Origin: Umbilicaria muhlenbergii
Taxonomy: Eukaryota > Ascomycota > Lecanoromycetes > Umbilicariales > Umbilicariaceae
Direction: 5' to 3'
Length of the DNA stretch: 64,000 bases
NCBI GenBank assembly: GCA_000611775.1
Contig: KK106981.1
Span: 1,793,507 to 1,857,506, forward strand
Part shown: piece after piece, positions 18,667 through 60,680 of the stretch
Layout: each line of letters starts with the position of its first letter
Numbering within the stretch: position 1 is the stretch's first letter
Position numbers and translations under genes: made by a program
Notes under the pieces: generated by a model
Database searches by the model: none
Told to the model about the DNA's origin: nothing
Seen by the model: the letters and a program-made list of their open reading frames with translations, nothing else

Positions 18667-19325
18667 ATTGGCTCGAGGTGGATGGCTCTCGCAATAGCTA
18701 TTGATGTTTCAGACAGGCCGTTGCTAAGTGATGATGGTGAGGCGTTGCCTAAAGCGCGAACGATGAAGATGAAGATGAGCAGATTCGGAAAGGAAGGCAG
18801 GCAGAAAGCACCCACGGCAGTAAGGTAAGATCTTACGTACCATGCCTGCTCAGCCTTGGCGCTACAGCGGGAGCGGGAGCACTAAGGTAGTTGCAGAGAG
18901 GCCTGCAAGCGCCGGCCGGCTTGCCTTATCAAGAGGCTGAAGGACGAGGCGAAAATCTGGAGCCAATCAATGCACGATCGCAAAAGTCCTCCTCCAAAAC
19001 CCACCCATCCTAGCCCGGAGGGGGACCAGTATGCTTGTTCAGGACAGTGTTCGGGGACAGTGTCTAATGATACAGGGCATTGATTATGATTACGAACTGT
19101 TGACTCGATCGTTCAGCCAAGTCACTACCATTTCCAACAGACTGTTGACTCGATCGTTCAGCCAAGTCACTACCATTTCCAACAGCCACCGGCAGCCGGC
19201 GAGTCGTTCCAATAGACCCTCACCCCTTCGGAGACGCCTTTCTAAAAGCCTCCAAGGAGTCTCGGGGTCAAGACAATTTACACCGAGTTCACAATCTACA
19301 CCAAGTCCTCTGAGGTTTGATTACA
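18667..19325. other. Intergenic, ESS2 / POP8 (divergent)
   Basis: 659 bases between divergent genes; promoters of both. Contains the 45-bp tandem duplication listed separately. Confidence 0.5.
19096..19185. repeat. Exact 45-bp tandem duplication
   Basis: Bases 19096-19140 are repeated without change as 19141-19185. The unit begins actgttgactcgatcgttca. It ends 140 bases before the POP8 ATG, in the promoter or 5' untranslated region. The lack of any mismatch indicates a recent event. Confidence 0.95.
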
Positions 19326-46499: not shown

Positions 46500-49026
46500 A
46501 TGCGTACTTTCAAGATGGTTGTCGTCGCTTTCGTGCTACTTCTCACTACGAGAGTGCTTCCGAATCCCATCAGCATCTCGAATGTTGGCAACGACGTTGG
46601 AAATATGCTACTTAGCGATCAAGATCTTGTCGGCCCGAAGACCGAGACAAACTCTGTGACCGTTGAGGAGTCATCTCGATTTATCGCCGACACCACTACC
46701 ACGAAAGTTCTGACACCAAGCGCAACCTCAAAGTGCACGCTGAGCGAGCAACACTCTATCTCAGGTCGCGAAGAATCCTACCCGGCACCTCAAGAGCGTA
46801 CTACCACGAAAGTTTTGACACCAAGCGCAACCTCAAATTGCATGCTGAGCGAGCAACACTCTATCGCAGGTCTCGAAGAATCCAACCCGGCATTTCAAGA
46901 GCGTACTACCACGAAATTTCTGACACCAAGCGCAACCTCAAACTGCATGCTGAGCGAGCAACACTTTATCTCAGGTCTCGAAGAATCCAACCCGGCACCT
47001 CAAGAGCGTACTATCACTATCACTTCCACAGTATCGCTGGCAAAGCTTATCGACTTTGAGACCAACACAGCCTGTATGACCGTTATCGAGTTATGTAAAA
47101 CCATTGTCGAGACACCAATTACGGAACCACTTCAAGGGTGCATCATGGACGTCAGTCCCGCAGCATTGCTCGCGATTCTTAACAACTTCAAGATCAATGC
47201 GCCCTGTACGACTCTTTTAGAGTTGTGCTTATCCATCATCGACACTGCTACCACTGGATCACTTCAAGAGCGCACACTGCATTTCATCCCTGAGGAATTA
47301 CTGGCAAACTGTACTGGCTGCAAGACCGACACACCGTGTGAGGCTTTTCTAGGGTTACGCCACTCCATTAGCGAAGCTGCTATCACAGAATCACAGCGAA
47401 AGTGCACCATCAACGTTCTGCCTGCGGCACCACTAGCAAACCTTACGGATCTCAAGATCAACGGAACCTATATCGCTGTATCTAAGATAGCCGGTTCGAT
47501 TGTCGACACAGCTAGTACTAAAGCACTTCAGGAGCACACCCTTGAGGTCATCCTTACCCTTCCGCTGGCTAGTTGTGACGGCTATAATATCAACGCACCT
47601 TGTACGACGGTTCTTCTGCTGCTGGAATATATTGTCAACACCACTATCCCAAAAGCACTTCAGGAGCGCAAGCTTGACATCATTTCTACAGGATCGCTAG
47701 CCCTTGTCTACACAGCAACTACAGAACCACTTCAGGAGCATACCTCCGACACCATTCCCACGGTATCGCTGTTCAATCGAGACGTCATTGTCCACACTGC
47801 CACTACAGAACCACTTCAGGAGCATACCTCCAACACCATTCCTGTGGTATCACTGTTCGATCGAGACGTCATTGTCCATACTGCCACTACAGAACCACTT
47901 CAGGAGCATACCTCCAACACCATTCCTACGGTATCACTGTTCGATCGAGACGTCATAACTTCATCATTGGAAACTTCCGGCAATGTCCTCATGGTTGAAA
48001 ATCGTTCGTCGACTGATAATCGTTCGCCTGTCTACGGTCGAGTTATTTACGCTCTTGTGTCATATATCGCTTTGTTCATCTTATTTGGAATGATAAGTGA
48101 GTCACATTCGAGTTATTGATTGAATCGATACTTACTACGTTGCAGTCACACGTCTACAAACACTCAGGATAGAAGAATGGCGCTCGATGACTCTTATCAG
48201 CATTCTCACCACGCTGGTCTATATCCTGGGGATCCTTTTCATCTTCTCCGCTGGAATGCTGATGGATGGCGCTGACCTTTCGAACGAAGCCCTGTGTCGA
48301 GGAGCAATCTATCTCTGCCTGATATTCTACCTTGGCTGCAAGGTGATAATGTATGTCTTCCTTGTAGAACGAGCTCACCTGCTGCGTCATATGAAACGCG
48401 GGAAGGATGTCGTGTTTCTGGTTGGCATTGGCATCTTGATATGCGGGTTCGGGCCCATCGCCGGCGTCGCATTCAAGGAGCCTGTCGCGGGCATATCGAC
48501 GGTGGACGGGAAATGCCGGATCGGATTGCCACTCGCCGTCACCATACCATTGCTTACCTACGATGTAACAATCAATGTGTTGATGGTGGGGATGTATGTC
48601 TTCTTGGCGTGGCCCTATATGAGGGGTCGAGGCTCTCCCGGAATCTGGCTTCGGGCCACCGGGCTTCGGAGAACCACGGGCCGCGTCTCCCAAAACGCCC
48701 TCCTCGAGCTCCTAATTTGGAGGAATTGTTACGGCGCCTGTTTGGTTGTGCTCCCGACCGTGGCCAATTTGGCCATACTGTTCAAAATCCACGGTCGGGA
48801 GCAAGGATGGCTCTGTTTTGCCGTCTGTACGATCGACGGTGAGTACCTTCGGGTTCTTGAGACATTCACATATCTTCACTTCACTGACTTGTGCATAGTG
48901 TCGTGGTCAGTGATCATAGTTCACTGGCTCACCGCCAAGCCGGAGGTGCTCGTGGAGGCCCCTCCGGGCACGGACGAGGAGAGGGTCGGGGTGGCCCCTC
49001 CGGGCACGTACGAGCAGATGGGGTGA
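46500..49026 (+). CDS. Seven-helix membrane protein with long repeat-built ectodomain
   Basis: Exons 46500-48096, 48146-48838, 48899-49026; 805 residues. A signal peptide (MVVVAFVLLLTTRVLPNP) leads to about 490 extracellular residues made of three tandem-repeat families (listed separately), then seven hydrophobic segments: VIYALVSYIALFILFGMI; LISILTTLVYILGILFIFSA; RGAIYLCLIFYLGCKVIMYV; VVFLVGIGILICGFGPIAGV; VTIPLLTYDVTINVLMVGMY; LVVLPTVANLAILFKIHG; and DVSWSVIIVHWLTAK. The helix region, with KCRIGLPL, REQGWLCF and a final VHWLT, resembles an uncharacterised fungal 7TM family that normally has a short N-terminus. A receptor or surface-sensing role is inference from topology only. The tail contains two APPGT repeats and ends at a purine tract. 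Introns are 49 and 60 nt; phases agree. Confidence 0.82.
46695..47009 (+). repeat. Coding tandem repeat, 3 x 105 bp (35 residues)
   Basis: Three adjacent units start at 46695, 46800 and 46905. Each reads TTTK.LTPSATS.C.LSEQH followed by a part ending EES.PA.QER. Differences are a few substitutions and no indels. The units keep one Cys each. This is the first and least diverged repeat family of the ectodomain. Confidence 0.95.
47013..47672 (+). repeat. Coding tandem repeat, 5 x 132 bp (44 residues), diverged
   Basis: Units begin at 47013, 47145, 47277, 47409 and 47541; the next would begin at 47673. The period is exactly 132 bp each time although sequences have drifted. Common pattern: short beta-like start with S/P.A.LA, a N/D.NAPC-like Cys motif, a hydrophobic TTLLEL/IV.T segment, then LQER/H-T. 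Most units keep two Cys. Confidence 0.9.
47712..47963 (+). repeat. Coding tandem repeat, 3 x 84 bp (28 residues), nearly identical
   Basis: Units start at 47712, 47796 and 47880, each reading TATTEPLQEHTS.TIP.VSL followed by F.RDVI. They look like the 132-bp unit with its Cys-bearing middle (16 residues, 48 bp) removed. Near identity points to recent expansion. Confidence 0.93.
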
Positions 49027-49112
49027 GGGAGGGAGGAAGGGGAGGAAGGGAGGAAGGGGGGGATGGGAGGAAGGGGATGAAGGGATGGGGGAGAGGAGAG
49101 GGGGGAAGCCAA
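49022..49112 (+). repeat. Purine-only tract, G-rich, at the 7TM stop codon
   Basis: About 90 bases of almost pure G and A (ggtgagggagggaggaaggg and on), starting at the TGA stop of the 7TM gene. Many GGG and GGGG runs on the plus strand could form a G-quadruplex or triplex. Confidence 0.85.
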
Positions 49113-49887
49113 TTTGATAGGGAGAGTGGTCTGGGCTGCATGGAGGCGTTTTTGGACTAGGCCTAGTTTGATCTAATATGATACCTTGGAGGTCCTCTCC
49201 TCCTCGCCGTTACTTCCTATGAACCCGTACCTCTATGAATGACTGGATGAATGCTACCCGGCTTCCTTGATCGTAGCAGTGAATTATGCCATGGGTACCT
49301 TATAACCTTCTCCCCAGCTCGCTCGCCGCCATCTTTCTTAATATTTTGACACAAGAAATGGCAATAGGCCACAGCTCCACCTAGAACACCATAGACAGTC
49401 TACTTATATCTCCAATCTACCTATGAAGCCATGGTCCGTCTACTGTGTACTTGTTGGATCGGCTAGTCTCACCTTGTGGTTGCATTCCACCTCGTCTTCG
49501 AAGACATGCAGAAATATAATCTGGCAAACCCTCCATTATCAGCATACACTCGGACCGCCCTGTGTAGCCTGGGCTTCCGGCCTTCATCTAAAACCCATCC
49601 AACAACTTCCTTCCGGTTTGGCTTCTCTCTACACTTTCATCTGGAAGCTAATGTTTCTTTGAAATCATATGGCGAAAGAAATGCCTATAAATTGATGGTT
49701 CTACACTATGGAAAATTAATCCTTCTCTCTTAACATAAGAGTATGACTGTTCTTAAGCTACCCGGTTCTACCGCTTGGGATACTGCTGAGATTACCATCC
49801 TTATAAGATGTTCTTAATCATAGCCTCCTTTTTTGGCCGTTGACATTCCCTAACGTGGCAGAACCTATCCCTTGGGTTCCACTCTGC
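49113..49887. other. Spacer with no clear gene
   Basis: About 775 bases between the purine tract and the first exon copy. An open frame at 49423-49662 starts near a gaagccatggtc string also seen in the last copy (51497-51508), so part may be an older copy. Otherwise nothing recognised. Confidence 0.4.
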
Positions 49888-51545
49888 TGCTCATTTGGAG
49901 AAGTTGTTACGGCACTTGCTTTGTGGTGCTCCCAATCGTGGCCAATTTGTCCACTCTCTTTAAGATACACAAGCGTGAGCAAGGTTGGCTTTGCTTCGCC
50001 ATCTGTACCATCGACGGTGGTTCTGTACGGATCAACAATGTCCCTAATCATGGCTTATCTTTTGGCATTGAAATGCCTTACCACGGCAAAATCTATCCTT
50101 AGTTGCTGCTATATATGTCAGTAAATACCTTCAACAGATGATCCGAGAGCATTTTATGGTGCCTGCTTGGTGGTGCTCCCGACCGTGGCCAATTTGGTCA
50201 TCTTCTTCAAGATCCACGGTCGAGAGCAGGGGTGGCTATCTTTTGCCCTGCGCATACACCTCGATGCTACGATACCTGCCAATTGTATTGACCTCTAGAT
50301 TGTCCAATTTTTCTTACTCTCTTCCCAGCGATGCTTCACATAGGAAGTTGTCGTCTATCTATCTTTTGTCGCATGCGTACTACGGTGACGCTACCTGGTT
50401 CATGGTCGGGAACAAGGATGGCTATTCTTTGCTCCATGCATATATAATTCGACGATACTTTAGACATCAACCGTGTTGACTTCCGAACTGTCGAAATTCT
50501 TTGCTGTTTGTCAAGGAGAGGTTGTCTAGTTATATCTTTCTTTTTATGTACTCTGGTGTCGATCTTCTGGATTCACAGTCGAGAGCAGGGCTGGCTCTGC
50601 TCCACGATGTCCACCATAACCATGATATCGAACTTCGTCTTCCATAGCATCCAGTCCATGGTCGAGAGCAAGGATGGCTATTCTTTGCTCCGTACATACA
50701 TACCTGAAGATCCTGTACGTATCAACTGTGCGGACTTCCCTTCTATTTCTTATTTCTACTCACCGTCCTGCGACGCAAGAAGAAAAGGCGGATTTACTGT
50801 CTTTGCCCTCCGCATACTCTGATGACGCTGTTCGAAGCCCACCTTCGAGAGCAAGGTTGGTTGTGCTTTACGATGTGCATACACAACGAAGATTCTCAAC
50901 AGATCAACGGAGTTGACTTCCGGGTTCGCCACCTCTTACTCTACGCATAAACACAGGTTTAGCCTACAGCGTCCGGGTCTATAAGGAAGGTGATCCTGTC
51001 GGAACCAAGTTGGAGACAAAGCAGGGCAGTACGCCTTCAGTCGAAGCGTTCATGGACTGGCCGGTAATGATCGAGGCCTTCGACTGGTCAAAGTACAAGA
51101 AGGGGAACCCGAGCACATACCCGCCGCAGCAAATACGTTTGACCGACATGCTAGCTGGTGAGATTTTAAGGAAAGAAATCCCTAGCAATGACGATGATCC
51201 CTACTTTATGCGAATACGGGAAACAGCCATGCGGATTGCTTCCGAAGTCTGGGCAATTGAAGGTTAGAGAAGTTGAAATGCTAGATGCAAAGACGCGGAT
51301 GCAGCATGAACATAGTCGGGTCGAGTTTGAAACCTGTCGGCTGCAATCCAGGAAGTCGGGACCTTGTTGGGACAGCAGAATATCAAAATATCTGAGCTAG
51401 CTAGCTACGTTGTGCTTCATACTTATACTCACAACATCTCTTCTCTCCTTGCCGTGCTTTGCACGACTCTGTACAACCCTGCTATATAACCTATTTGAAG
51501 CCATGGTCGAGGATCAGGGGTAGCTATCTTATTCTTTTACTCCAG
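49888..51545 (+). repeat. Array of diverged copies of the 7TM exon-2 end
   Basis: The stretch of the upstream 7TM gene around 48700-48838 (helix 6, the REQGWLCF motif and the donor) recurs in decayed form. The clearest copies are 49888-50025 (LLIWRSCYGTCFVVLPIVAN ... KREQGWLCFAICTIDG) and 50148-50260 (YGACLVVLP-like, FFKIHGREQGWL). Shorter copies keep only the gagagcaaggatggct-like core. Cores begin near 49977, 50222, 50408, 50581, 50664, 50847 and 51509; the parent core is at 48797. Several copies share a second block about 60-80 bases further on, gatcaac then gttgacttcc. All are on the plus strand. No helix-1 to helix-5 sequence accompanies them, so these are partial tandem copies, not whole gene duplicates. 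Confidence 0.8.
50956..51267 (+). other. Orphan open coding-like stretch
   Basis: The frame is open from about 50917 to a TAG at 51265-51267. From 50956 it reads like protein: YSVRVYKEGDPVGTKLETKQ, EAFMDWPVMIEAFDWSKYKK, TYPPQQIRLTDMLAGEILRK, then DDPYFMRIRETAMRIASEVW. It has no ATG at a sensible start and lies inside the exon-copy array. It may be a terminal exon or a fragment of an unrelated gene. I recognise no family. Confidence 0.35.
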
Positions 51546-56470: not shown

Positions 56471-57749
56471 ATGGCCGGAACTATGGAGGATGATAGAGGT
56501 CCACAAATCGAGGCCGTCACCTATGCCATGCTTATTCTGGCAACAATGGCAGTTGCTCTCCGGTTATGGGCCAGATATATCACGCCTCAAGTTGGCTTCT
56601 GGTGGGATGATTGGTTATCACTGGCCGCTCTTGTAAGTCCAAGCTTATTGCCAGACCACTGAACATATCCTCACCACTTGCATCGCAGCCTTTTGTATGG
56701 GCAAGCTGTGCACTATCCATATACTGGGTGCACATTGGCTTAGGCAGACACATCAGTGAAATCCGCGGAACGTATTCGCAGATGGCGTTAATCCTCTTCG
56801 TCGAGAACTTTGTGTATAACGCAGGCCTCTCTCTGGTCAAGATGTCTGTTCTTCTATTTTACATGCGCCTCTTCGGGACTGTGCGAGTGTATCGCTGTCT
56901 CTTCTGGATTGCTGGGTTTCTGGTGGTCGCTTTGTTCATCGCTATCACCTTCGTCGCCTTGTTCATGTGCGCCCCAATACACAAGCATTGGCAGCCAACG
57001 GTCCCCGGCCATTGCCTTGACTCACAGGCATGCTTTCTAGGAGCGACCATCTCAAACGTTGTTATAGACTTCATTCTACTGGTTTTGCCGGTACCTATCC
57101 TATGGCGAATCAATGTAAAAGTCTCACGCAAAGCCGGTTTGGTAGGAGTGTTTGCGGCAGGATACTGGTAAGCTCGCAACTGAAACAAGTCGCCCACCAT
57201 GGCTAAATTAGAGAACAGTGTGATTATTTTATCTATCTTGAGGCTGATATCCATTACGAACTTGAAAGATGAGTTGCAATACGATATATCATGTAGGTGA
57301 TCATCTTTGAAGCAAAGCTCCCGGACATTCTTCTAACAACACAGATAGGGAACCTTACAACCCCTCAGATTCTAGTGACGTGTGAAGTCCCTGTCGCGCT
57401 AATTAGCAGCTGTCTTCCTCTCATCTTCACCCTAATTAAGCACGGCGCTCAAAGGCTCCCGACCACATTCAAATGGAATGCTTCAAAGCGTATGAGGGGT
57501 CTCAGGGCTCCTTACGTCGATCCTACCGGGAGTCTTCTTGATCAACGCAATACAAAAGGCTTTGTACACCTGTCCCAGGAAAGGTTGTTCGACAATACAA
57601 CTCAGACGGAGGCTGATTGCACTATGAAATCTTCTCCTCGGCTGGTCCGAGAAAACCAACGCCGGGATGCGGAAATGGGGATTCCGCTGCATCAATTTCG
57701 TGTGACAGAAGACAGTGACAGTAAAAAGAAAGGAGTCGAGGAGGGGTGA
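56471..57749 (+). CDS. Fungal rhodopsin-fold (SAT4/PTH11-like) membrane protein
   Basis: Exons 56471-56632, 56689-57167, 57219-57292, 57349-57749; 371 residues. Typical motifs: ALRLWARYITPQVGFWWDDW (helix 1 with WWDD), SLVKMSVLLFYMRLFGTVRV, ALFMCAPIHKHWQPTVPGHC, ISNVVIDFILLVLPVPILWR, VIILSILRLISITNLKDELQ and, across the last intron, YDISWNLTTPQILVTCEVPV. Seven helices precede a cytosolic tail with Ser/Thr and Arg. The extracellular CFEM domain of true Pth11 is absent. The family is large in filamentous fungi and mostly uncharacterised. The last acceptor is read as CAGATAG rather than ACAG because only that keeps frame. Confidence 0.88.
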
Positions 57750-58707
57750 GTGGTTGAAGTAGCGTTATGCAGGACTGTGAACCTTGATTGCGGTTAAAAG
57801 TCACGTTTTGATTCTATAGGATTGAGAGATTTGTATAGCGAAGACGTATACACATATGCCATCGATAGAGCAAGACTCTCAACTTTGTGACACAGCAAAG
57901 ATAGCATGAAGTGGGCATTTTCCACCTAAACAATTTCCTACTAGATCGTAATGCCAGAAAACACAATAGAAAGACAGATGAGCAGGTAAATACCCCTTGA
58001 CGACCACGAAAAGCCCACGATCGTAGTAAACCTCCCCCCTCCTGACCCCTCTCAGAAAGCCCAAAAGGAATCGACGCCAAAGAAGAACGGTATCAAATAA
58101 CGAACGCCAAGCGCCTGTATCGCCGCTACTATCAACAACAGGCACAACCCGAGCGTCGGCGCCACAACCCGAGCGTCGGCGCCACAACCCGCCTGCATCC
58201 TAATCTGCCCGGCACTGACATCAGCAGCGGAGAGGTCCTCCGATGACTTCGAACAGCTCCTGGCGTCGCCTCGATGGAAAAAACCAAATACGAGAAGTAA
58301 TCCATGCGCAACGACATCTTGTGGACTAAGACGCAGGACCACACGAGGTCAACGTATAGGCAGTACTCCGACACAGCATGTTTGGGGTGACAAGGAGCAG
58401 ACAGCAATCGACGACGACGAGGTATTCCCGAGCCTCCAAAAGGCGTTCGTTGGCGGCGGAGAGGGTGGACATGGGGCATCCAGAGAGGTGGGGGCTCTTC
58501 AAGGGTAATTATGCCCATAGATCATTATCATAGCTATTACGATTACACCCATCTTTGACATATCCGTCCGCTCTACAAAACATCCTCCACTCCCAAAAAA
58601 ACCCGCGGGCCATGCAACGCAAGAGGAAACTGCCTCCATATCCTGTTCGTTTCCTCAACCACACCCCAACCCCCAACCCCCACCCCGCGGGCCCTCGTAT
58701 ATGTAGT
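57750..58707. other. Intergenic, rhodopsin-fold gene / chitin deacetylase (convergent)
   Basis: About 960 bases between convergent stops. It contains the 20-bp tandem repeat listed separately. Minus-strand frames of up to 128 codons lack recognisable features. Confidence 0.45.
58144..58191. repeat. 20-bp tandem repeat, 2.4 copies
   Basis: The unit acaacccgagcgtcggcgcc starts at 58144 and 58164 without change; a third partial copy (acaacccg) starts at 58184. Confidence 0.93.
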
Positions 58708-60680
58708 TTAGTACGTGAACTGCGTACTCGAGCACACAAACCCACAAGTAGCGCAATATGTCGAAAGCTTCTGGCAAATCTGCCTGAACGTGGTACAACT
58801 GGCGCTATTCTTCGCCCCAGCCTCCGACAAGCAGCTCGTCCCCAAGAGATAGCAATTCGCCGCGCCCCTCAAGCAGCCGGCCTTGTCGCCAAAGGCGTTG
58901 ATCTTGCCGCAGAACTTGCCGGCTTGGACGGCGCAGGTGGTGATGGGGGGGACGGCGATGGAGGTTGATGGTTTGGGGCTGGTGCTCGGGGTCGGGGACG
59001 GGGTGCTGCTGGTTGATGAAGCGACCGGAGCGGTTGTGCTTAAGGAGTTGGTCTTGGGACTGGCTGCAGGGGTGGACACGGAGGAGGAAGCGGGCATTGG
59101 TGGAGGGTTGGCGATGGGGCCCCCACTTTGTGGAACACGGTACCAGTTAGCCGGAGGGTCGCCCAGACATTCGCCCACAGTGACTCCTGTCAAACTCGTC
59201 AACTTCATGTCAATTCCCCATAAGCATGAGGTAACCTCTGCACTCACCCTTCCAACCTTTTGCTTTGATGAGGCCAAGGTAGTACGAAGTTAGGTTCGTG
59301 ACGGACTGCTCGATAACGTCATGTTGAATGGAGAGATAATCTGTGATCGGTGGATTGGCAGTCTGGGCCAGCGCAGCCGCAACGAGATCCTTGGCACCCT
59401 GGATTTGCGTTGGCAGAGGGTTCAGATAGTCCTGGGTGTCGAGATCGAAATATATACGATGGTAACCGAGCGCCAGCAAATCTGCCTGGCAACCGGAGGC
59501 TGCGTCGCACTGGGAGTAAGGTGGGCGCATATACGTCGGATACTTGCCGATGATGTTGGCCAGCGCACGCTCGTTCTTTCCCATCTGATCGTACCGCATC
59601 GCTGAAGAAAGGTTCTGCAGGCTGTAGTGAGACCAAGTGTGGGAAGCAACTTGGTGGCCATCGGCAATCATGCGCTGAATGATTGTTGGGTACGGAGGAG
59701 TGATGTCAATTGGACCTTTGCCAAGATTGTTGCCTGTGATGAAAAATGTGGCATGGAAGCCGAAAGACGCCAAGGTATCTAGGAGCTCGTTGGTGAAGTT
59801 CCATGGACCGTCGTCAAATGTCAATGCCACTACGTTCTGTTCCACACAATCGATGATGTCCTGGGTATATGTGACACTTCCGAGTAATGGCCGTGGGTCC
59901 GTCAACGTGGAGGGTCCAGCCGGAGTTGTGTTCGAATCGCAGATACCGTATTCATATTGACACCAGGGATCCGCGCAGTAGGCTTCTGTTTTGCCGCAGT
60001 AGCCCTGTCACTGTTGTCAGTCGTTAAAGGGCTTGGTCCAAAGGGCAAAGCCTACTGTGAATGAGCAGCATTGCCCAGCAGGACAGTCGGCGTTTCCAAA
60101 GGCCGGCCCACATGTTTCTGCGCCGTCGCCGTCAGCTACATTGGTGGTGCAGTTACCGTAGCCAGTTTGACACCCAATAGTGCAATAAGCTGTTGTGTTG
60201 CCACAAAATCTATCACCGTCAACTGAATGGGCATTTGAAATGGCAAAAGCTGACTCACCCAGCTGCGGAACAGCAAAGACCACCCGAGCAGCTGTTGTTG
60301 TCATTTTTGACACCACACAGGTTGGGATCCACAGTTAGAACTTCTGAGCCAGAGCACGTTCCATATGCTGGCTGACAGCCAGTACCACAATAATCCGATG
60401 TATTCCCTGTCGAGATATTAGATTAACGGAGCCGCTCGTTTGTCTTGATTTGCTACTAACCGCAATATCCGAACGCCGAGCAGCACCCTCCGCCTGCTGC
60501 TATTCTCGGATCACAGGTATAACCATTATTATTGCCATTAAACACGTTTCCACACGTATTGTCCGGAGTCAGCATGCGCTCGCTCAAAATATTGAGCGAG
60601 CCTGCGTCTTCGGCGGGCAATGCAGAGCTGATGCCTGCAAAAGCAAGCCCCACTGCGACCTGTAGATAGTTATAGTGCAT
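58708..60680 (-). CDS. Secreted chitin deacetylase with three CBM18 modules
   Basis: Removes acetyl groups from chitin in the wall or environment. Exons 60680-60461, 60406-60259, 60209-60056, 60004-59248, 59186-58708; 585 residues. Signal peptide MHYNYLQVAVGLAFAGISSA. Three chitin-recognition (CBM18) modules are each split by an intron near GGxCCS-GYCG: TCGNVFNGNNNGYTC, LCGVKNDNNSCSGGLCCSAA and TCGPAFGNADCPAGQCCS. The NodB domain has VVALTFDDGPWNFTNELLDT (motif 1, catalytic Asp), SHTWSHYSL (H..H metal site), RPPYSQCD (motif 3) and YFDLDTQDYLN (motif 4). A Ser/Thr/Pro linker (about residues 450-510) leads to a Cys-rich C-terminal domain (TTCAVQAGKFCGKINAFGDK and on). Such proteins can shield hyphae from host chitin sensing; that is family knowledge, not shown here. 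Confidence 0.94.

Follow-up and report, generated by a model that had tools for sequence, protein, structure and literature searches.

In a stretch of 64,000 nucleotides from contig KK106981.1 of Umbilicaria muhlenbergii (hereafter the window), the segment 46500-49026 raises the question whether a signal peptide, a long repeat-built outer part and seven membrane helices belong to one and the same protein and, if so, what such a protein might do. A preliminary description of the locus had proposed exactly this fusion.

Gene model and reading frame

The segment was modelled from the letters as one three-exon gene on the forward strand with a product of 805 aa (Table 1). There are two candidate starts, the ATG at 46500 and an in-frame ATG at 46515 (Met6), which has the better context (AAG-ATG-G). 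The signal peptide was called from hydropathy; the run of residues 3-24 resembles a signal peptide with a mean hydropathy of about 1.8, and the length of about 22 residues is given with an approximate cleavage point.

Table 1. Features of the gene and of the related pieces downstream (positions in the window)
Feature	Position	Strand	Details
Exon 1	46500-48096	+	signal peptide, repeat ectodomain, helix 1; 532-codon open frame
Predicted signal peptide	46500-46565	+	start M1 or M6; hydrophobic run residues 3-24
A array	46695-47009	+	3 units x 35 residues; TRF
A units	46695-46799, 46800-46904, 46905-47009	+	35 residues each
B array	47016-47672	+	5 diverged units, 42-45 residues; 11 cysteines
B units	47016-47141, 47142-47276, 47277-47405, 47406-47540, 47541-47672	+	pairwise alignment vs shuffles
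C array	47673-47957	+	C0 24, C1 and C2 28, C3 15 residues
Helix 1	48042-48096 (approximate)	+	residues 515-533; hydropathy peak 2.61; last codon completed in exon 2
Intron 1	48097-48145	+	49 bp, GTGAGT..TTGCAG
Exon 2	48146-48838	+	helices 2 to 6, helix 7 start; Cys583, Glu607-Arg608, Cys656
Intron 2	48839-48898	+	60 bp, GTGAGT..CATAG; in phase, stop-free
Exon 3	48899-49026	+	helix 7 remainder, cytosolic tail with 1.9 x 36 bp repeat, stop
Cytosolic-tail repeat	48950-49018	+	1.9 x 36 bp, TRF
Decayed copy 1 of exon 2 end	49886-50019	+	79% DNA
Decayed copy 2	50154-50247	+	85% DNA
Four short copies of IHGREQGWLCFA segment	50392-50439, 50523-50618, 50654-50689, 50819-50878	+	tblastn E 1e-4 to 0.06
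IHGREQGWLCFA short copies and shared flanking repeats	50392-50922	+	repeat search

Both introns have canonical-looking splice sites. The unspliced frame runs into a stop at 48119, so the removal of intron 1 is required. The phase of intron 2 and its lack of stops mean that the reading frame by itself cannot settle this intron. Only with this intron removed does helix 7 (LCFAVCTID-VSWSVIIVHWL) form, across the joined exons, and the similarity of the decayed copy at 49886-50019 stops 3 bases beyond the intron 2 donor.

The open frame of exon 1 is long, with 532 codons against 258 for the longest run among 2000 samples drawn from a first-order Markov model of this stretch, a comparison to be read with the non-independence of the repeat units in mind. 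A codon-type score was also applied, with 14 other open frames from the window as its training set. It places the gene's frame on top of the three forward frames in six of six segments and on top of all six frames in five; the exception is exon 2, where an antisense frame reaches 0.010 versus 0.006 but contains two stops. Two of the six segments, namely A (-0.018) and the region following C, helix 1 included (-0.061), fall under all 14 training frames (range -0.001 to 0.186), a yardstick that is somewhat generous because the model that scored these frames had been trained on them. The score reflects amino-acid make-up, its synonymous component being uninformative here.

Taken together, the sequence supports the assignment of the signal peptide, the repeat ectodomain and the seven helices to one gene. 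The fusion described earlier stands, since the open exon that codes for the repeats also codes for helix 1, and helix 7 spans the junction at intron 2. The earlier figure of about 490 residues for the ectodomain agrees with the model as well: 514 residues precede helix 1, and about 492 are left after the signal peptide is subtracted.

Kinship and age of the repeat arrays

Three arrays (A, B and C) make up the repeats. TRF reported A as 3.1 x 105 bp at 46695-47017 and C as 3.0 x 84 bp at 47704-47956, both with 92% matches; the 44-residue B family is not among the repeats reported by TRF. At the protein level, all 10 pairs of B units exceeded all 300 shuffles. When B was compared with C in the same way, 10 of the 20 pairs reached p <= 0.01 and 11 reached 0.05, and the nine misses comprise all four B3 pairs, the other four pairs of the short C3, and B5-C0. 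The best DNA match of C1 is located in B4, with a score of 27 against a null mean of 9.6, which none of 1000 samples reached. Judged by these alignments, C goes back to a B unit that lacks about 17 inner residues, and B4 is its nearest counterpart. With C derived from B, the three arrays represent two families.

Regarding A, the result was different. None of its 27 protein pairs with B or C had a shuffle p < 0.2, and four tests of A against B and C at the DNA level gave p between 0.16 and 0.33. The QERT stretch that A shares is a 16-base match with a score attained by chance in about one case in six. Neither the protein shuffles nor the DNA tests thus support descent of A from the same ancestor as B and C.

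The preliminary description had counted three repeat families and derived all of them from one ancestral unit. The repeats are real and form three arrays, but C is a B derivative and the number of families drops to two; a single ancestral unit can be kept for B and C, not for A. The LQE(R/H)T motif said to end all repeat types was recovered in part. LQER or LQEH, followed by one residue, closes three of the five B units (B2, B4 and B5), whereas the closing letters are LQGC in B1 and SQRKC in B3; A continues into PQERT or FQERT. Whether the motif counts as an end at all depends on where the tandem unit is cut.

The arrays differ in their internal likeness. The A copies are 93-94% and the C copies 91-93% alike in DNA, versus 53-64% in DNA and 26-44% in protein for the B units. 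By this measure B is old and A and C multiplied recently, and the proposal that the repeats were re-expanded at different times is supported.

The nonsynonymous to synonymous changes between the A copies number 7:1, 6:0 and 5:2, and pN exceeds pS in two of the three pairs, so no constraint is visible in this array; our reading of A is that it is young and either free or diversifying. Among the B units pS exceeds pN in 10 of 10 pairs, in protein-guided alignments that favour this outcome, and in all four ungapped B pairs likeness is lowest at the third codon position, though only slightly so in two. To judge from these comparisons, B has been kept and looks protein-constrained. The C copies show ratios of 7:4, 5:5 and 2:1 with pS above pN in all three pairs (in a shifted register), and in a second comparison pS was higher in six of six pairs, few changes being involved. 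C appears younger than B and is perhaps kept.

These observations bear on an alternative in which the main product is an ordinary short seven-helix protein, made from Met498 (47991) under an internal promoter, and the repeat exon is a neutral or minor upstream extension. The in-frame ATG of Met498 is indeed placed 17 residues ahead of helix 1, the A copies lack constraint, and the yeast signalling mucin Hkr1 is reported to have a cryptic exon promoter giving a truncated form (PMC11581313). We nevertheless consider a short main product unlikely. Position -3 is C at Met498 but A at Met6, which also has G at +4, a poor context for the former and a good one for the latter; moreover, the repeat frame is open throughout, the B units look constrained as protein, and a signal-peptide-like run is present at the far end.

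Repeats were also seen outside the ectodomain. A purine-rich repeat of 8-17 bp is found at 49025-49108, directly after the tail repeat (48950-49018). Elsewhere in the window, TRF reported a perfect 2 x 45 bp tandem repeat at 19096-19185 and a perfect 2.5 x 20 bp repeat at 58143-58191, the latter about 1 kb from a gene region on the reverse strand (59213-60007) with a polysaccharide deacetylase domain (PF01522, E 1e-31). Among other genes of the window, Sec61 alpha scores 743 bits with PDB 7kak and 689 bits with 9i78, and the saccharopine reductase 459 bits with 1e5l, matches that point no further than to a filamentous-ascomycete-like source.

Decayed pieces downstream of the gene

Using tblastn within the window, we found six pieces of the helix 6-7 segment at 49887-50878 (E 1e-18 to 0.06). 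The matches found in the genome other than the gene itself are located within about 2 kb downstream of it. At least six decayed forward-strand pieces are centred on the segment given in Table 1 and occupy 49886-50922 and 51501-51530, with flanking repeats that they share, spaced about 180-360 bp.

Between copy 1 and the gene, 28 of 134 bases differ, and 20 of these 28 differences fall on third codon positions (p 4e-5); for copy 2 the differences are 14 of 94, with 11 of the 14 at third positions (p 7e-4). This excess in the two longest pieces indicates that they descended from translated relatives, and that the helix 6-7 frame of the gene and its former relatives evolved as translated protein. 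Within the sequence data to hand, the third-position bias is the best evidence for the helices as real protein; it concerns the helix 6-7 segment only and reflects past constraint, not present use.

RIP was considered as the cause of the decay but is not supported. Of the differences, 10 of 28 and 5 of 14 are C-to-T or G-to-A changes when read from gene to copy and 6 of 28 and 4 of 14 are the reverse, and the dinucleotide ratios of the pieces are close to the values of the whole window.

A second intact copy was not found in the 34.8 Mb genome of the organism itself, in which only the gene and its local pieces were recovered (counts being lower bounds). The overall pattern suggests a local tandem family that decayed around a single survivor. 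One could go further and regard the gene itself as dying, i.e. as the last open member of a family otherwise reduced to fragments, with repeats drifting without function. The six decayed pieces within 2 kb downstream, the unconstrained A copies and the failure to find a second intact copy would fit such a scenario. However, all three exons are open and their splice sites look canonical, the B and C arrays hold one frame, and the damage seen in the neighbouring pieces is absent from the gene, and we regard a dying gene as quite unlikely.

The seven-helix part and its possible role

Hydropathy predicts seven hydrophobic helices after the repeats (residues 515-774), the ends of which were placed by hand. 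Inner loops 1-3 contain 3, 5 and 7 Lys and Arg residues (15 in total), the outer loops 1, 3 and 1 (5 in total), and together with the signal-peptide-like run these charges lead to a predicted N-terminus outside. Seven helices with an N-out/C-in orientation are expected of a GPCR, and the product has both according to hydropathy and charge prediction, but this topology does not prove a GPCR. Class A GPCRs are further marked by a cysteine pair between helix 3 and outer loop 2, by E/D-R at the inner end of helix 3 and by NPxxY in helix 7, and their positions 3.25 and 3.50 are 25 residues apart. In the product, outer loop 1 contains Cys583 before helix 3, loop 2 contains Cys656 and loop 3 has no cysteine. 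Glu607-Arg608 follows helix 3, Arg608 sitting 25 residues past Cys583, and no NPxxY-like motif was seen by eye in helix 7.

Ser+Thr account for 24.5% of the outer part (residues 23-507), in which five N-glycosylation sequons are present. In raw fractions, Ser+Thr make up 30% of A, 19% of B and 27% of C; A is hydrophilic (-0.71) and B hydrophobic (0.39), and B holds most of the 14 cysteines of the whole N-terminal part. In fungal adhesins, repeats that are rich in Ser/Thr and recently re-expanded are common, and the repeats found here would suit a surface adhesin or wall-anchored protein whose helices serve only as a membrane anchor. We find this very improbable, as one helix or a GPI anchor would suffice for anchoring, against the seven helices with GPCR-like inner-loop charges and cysteines found here, and as the B array is hydrophobic and cysteine-bearing.

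The Pfam search returned no family for the protein at E up to 10, where HMMER filters can lose weak matches. The same library recognised, as a positive control, the Pth11-type domain PF20684 at E 7e-40 in a receptor exon on the forward strand, 7.6 kb from the gene (56611-57168). The 17 published fungal GPCR classes are defined by Pfam domains (listed in Table 1 of PMC13308352). At this threshold the product matched none of them, PF20684 and CFEM of the class XIV Pth11-like receptors included, and the gene is therefore not filed under a fungal GPCR class. A GAIN/GPS domain was likewise not matched in Pfam, and NCBIfam gave a single match at chance level (E 3.2). Sequence searches of PDB yielded no match for exon 1 and two weak matches for exon 2, the better of which (E 0.1, a CRISPR-associated protein) is not credible. 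Pattern matches of exon 2 in collections of viral and genome contigs numbered 7 and 12, none of which was confirmed; both collections are non-fungal and hence uninformative about fungi. The seven-helix part may belong to a widespread, unannotated family of Pezizomycotina with a normally short outer part, in line with the preliminary description, a possibility that serves as a lead only. The seven helices could also be those of an enzyme or a transporter that carries an outer extension unrelated to them. The absence of a GPCR family match in Pfam and the known fungal seven-transmembrane methyltransferase (PMC10349129) could be cited for this, but it is the least probable of the alternatives, as enzyme and transporter families were unmatched too, in both Pfam and NCBIfam.

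The reading that we favour, with moderate confidence, is that of an orphan GPCR-like surface sensor, a predicted plasma-membrane protein with seven helices and N-out topology, which would be mounted on a wall-spanning repeat stalk. A variable surface receptor or adhesin-like sensor, as suggested in the preliminary description, is plausible, and the seven-helix protein may still work like a GPCR. The helices would form a receptor of a class outside the published fungal scheme, with a putative disulfide from helix 3 to outer loop 2 and with E-R as a motif where helix 3 ends on the inner side. The repeats would serve as a glycosylated stalk that carries the sensor through the cell wall or anchors it there, in analogy with the outer parts of Wsc1 and the signalling mucins, which are thought to work likewise. 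For Wsc1, a Ser/Thr-rich stretch of 200 residues has been proposed to penetrate the wall as a nanospring (PMC7915640). Differences between strains or ligands could act via the length of the stalk and the make-up of the B units, and pulling or binding might be passed on to the helices and from there to a G protein or another inner partner. Points that weigh against this reading are the lack of visible constraint in A, the low codon-type scores of A and of the region with helix 1, and the missing NPxxY-like motif.

Several known systems share parts of this layout. The Pth11-like receptors of class XIV (PF20684; CFEM, PF05730) also have seven helices with the N-terminus outside, and some members are described with an outer CFEM domain; the product lacks a match to either domain, although PF20684 was recognised in the neighbouring exon. 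Wsc1-type sensors and the signalling mucins Msb2 and Hkr1 of yeast resemble the product in the signal peptide and in the length of the outer part, which in them is Ser/Thr-rich (to be set beside the raw 24.5% here) and in some of them contains repeats; both kinds are presumed to act across the wall. However, Wsc1 is reported to have one membrane helix and a WSC domain (PMC7915640) and the signalling mucins one transmembrane domain (PMC3491010), in contrast to the seven helices and no Pfam domain here. The Izh3-type PAQR proteins of class VIII are fungal seven-helix proteins with a likewise long N-terminal part, and in Trichoderma about 280 residues are reported for the outer N-terminal extension of Izh3-like proteins (PMC3664084). 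PAQR proteins have the domain PF03006, unmatched in our product, and the accessible text of PMC3664084 makes no mention of repeats in them. With the Izh3-like proteins and CFEM on Pth11, there is some precedent for long outer parts on fungal seven-helix proteins. The adhesion GPCRs of animals also have a long outer part on seven helices, a comparison of the way of working only, but theirs includes a GAIN/GPS domain and the product has no Pfam match of any kind. Krishnan et al. 2012 reportedly name adhesion GPCRs in fungi in the title of their paper. In another source this class is reported absent from fungi (PMC12842992).

No fungal seven-helix protein with a repeat ectodomain was found in the titles and abstract openings of the literature searched, in which few subscription journals are covered, and as far as these searches show the layout of the gene is undescribed. 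The published fungal GPCR scheme names each of its 17 classes by a Pfam domain (PMC13308352), so a seven-helix protein without any such domain would escape searches based on these domains. Only tentatively do we propose that the gene represents an undescribed fungal GPCR class which gained a fast-evolving, repeat-built and wall-spanning ectodomain, a seven-helix counterpart of the signalling mucins in which sensing would be tuned by repeat number. The old B array and the shortened, re-expanded C array show clearly, within the same surface protein, how a single repeat family was rebuilt on separate occasions. If the protein signals, it would add a receptor class and would show that a fungal seven-helix receptor can gain a long outer part tunable by repeats.
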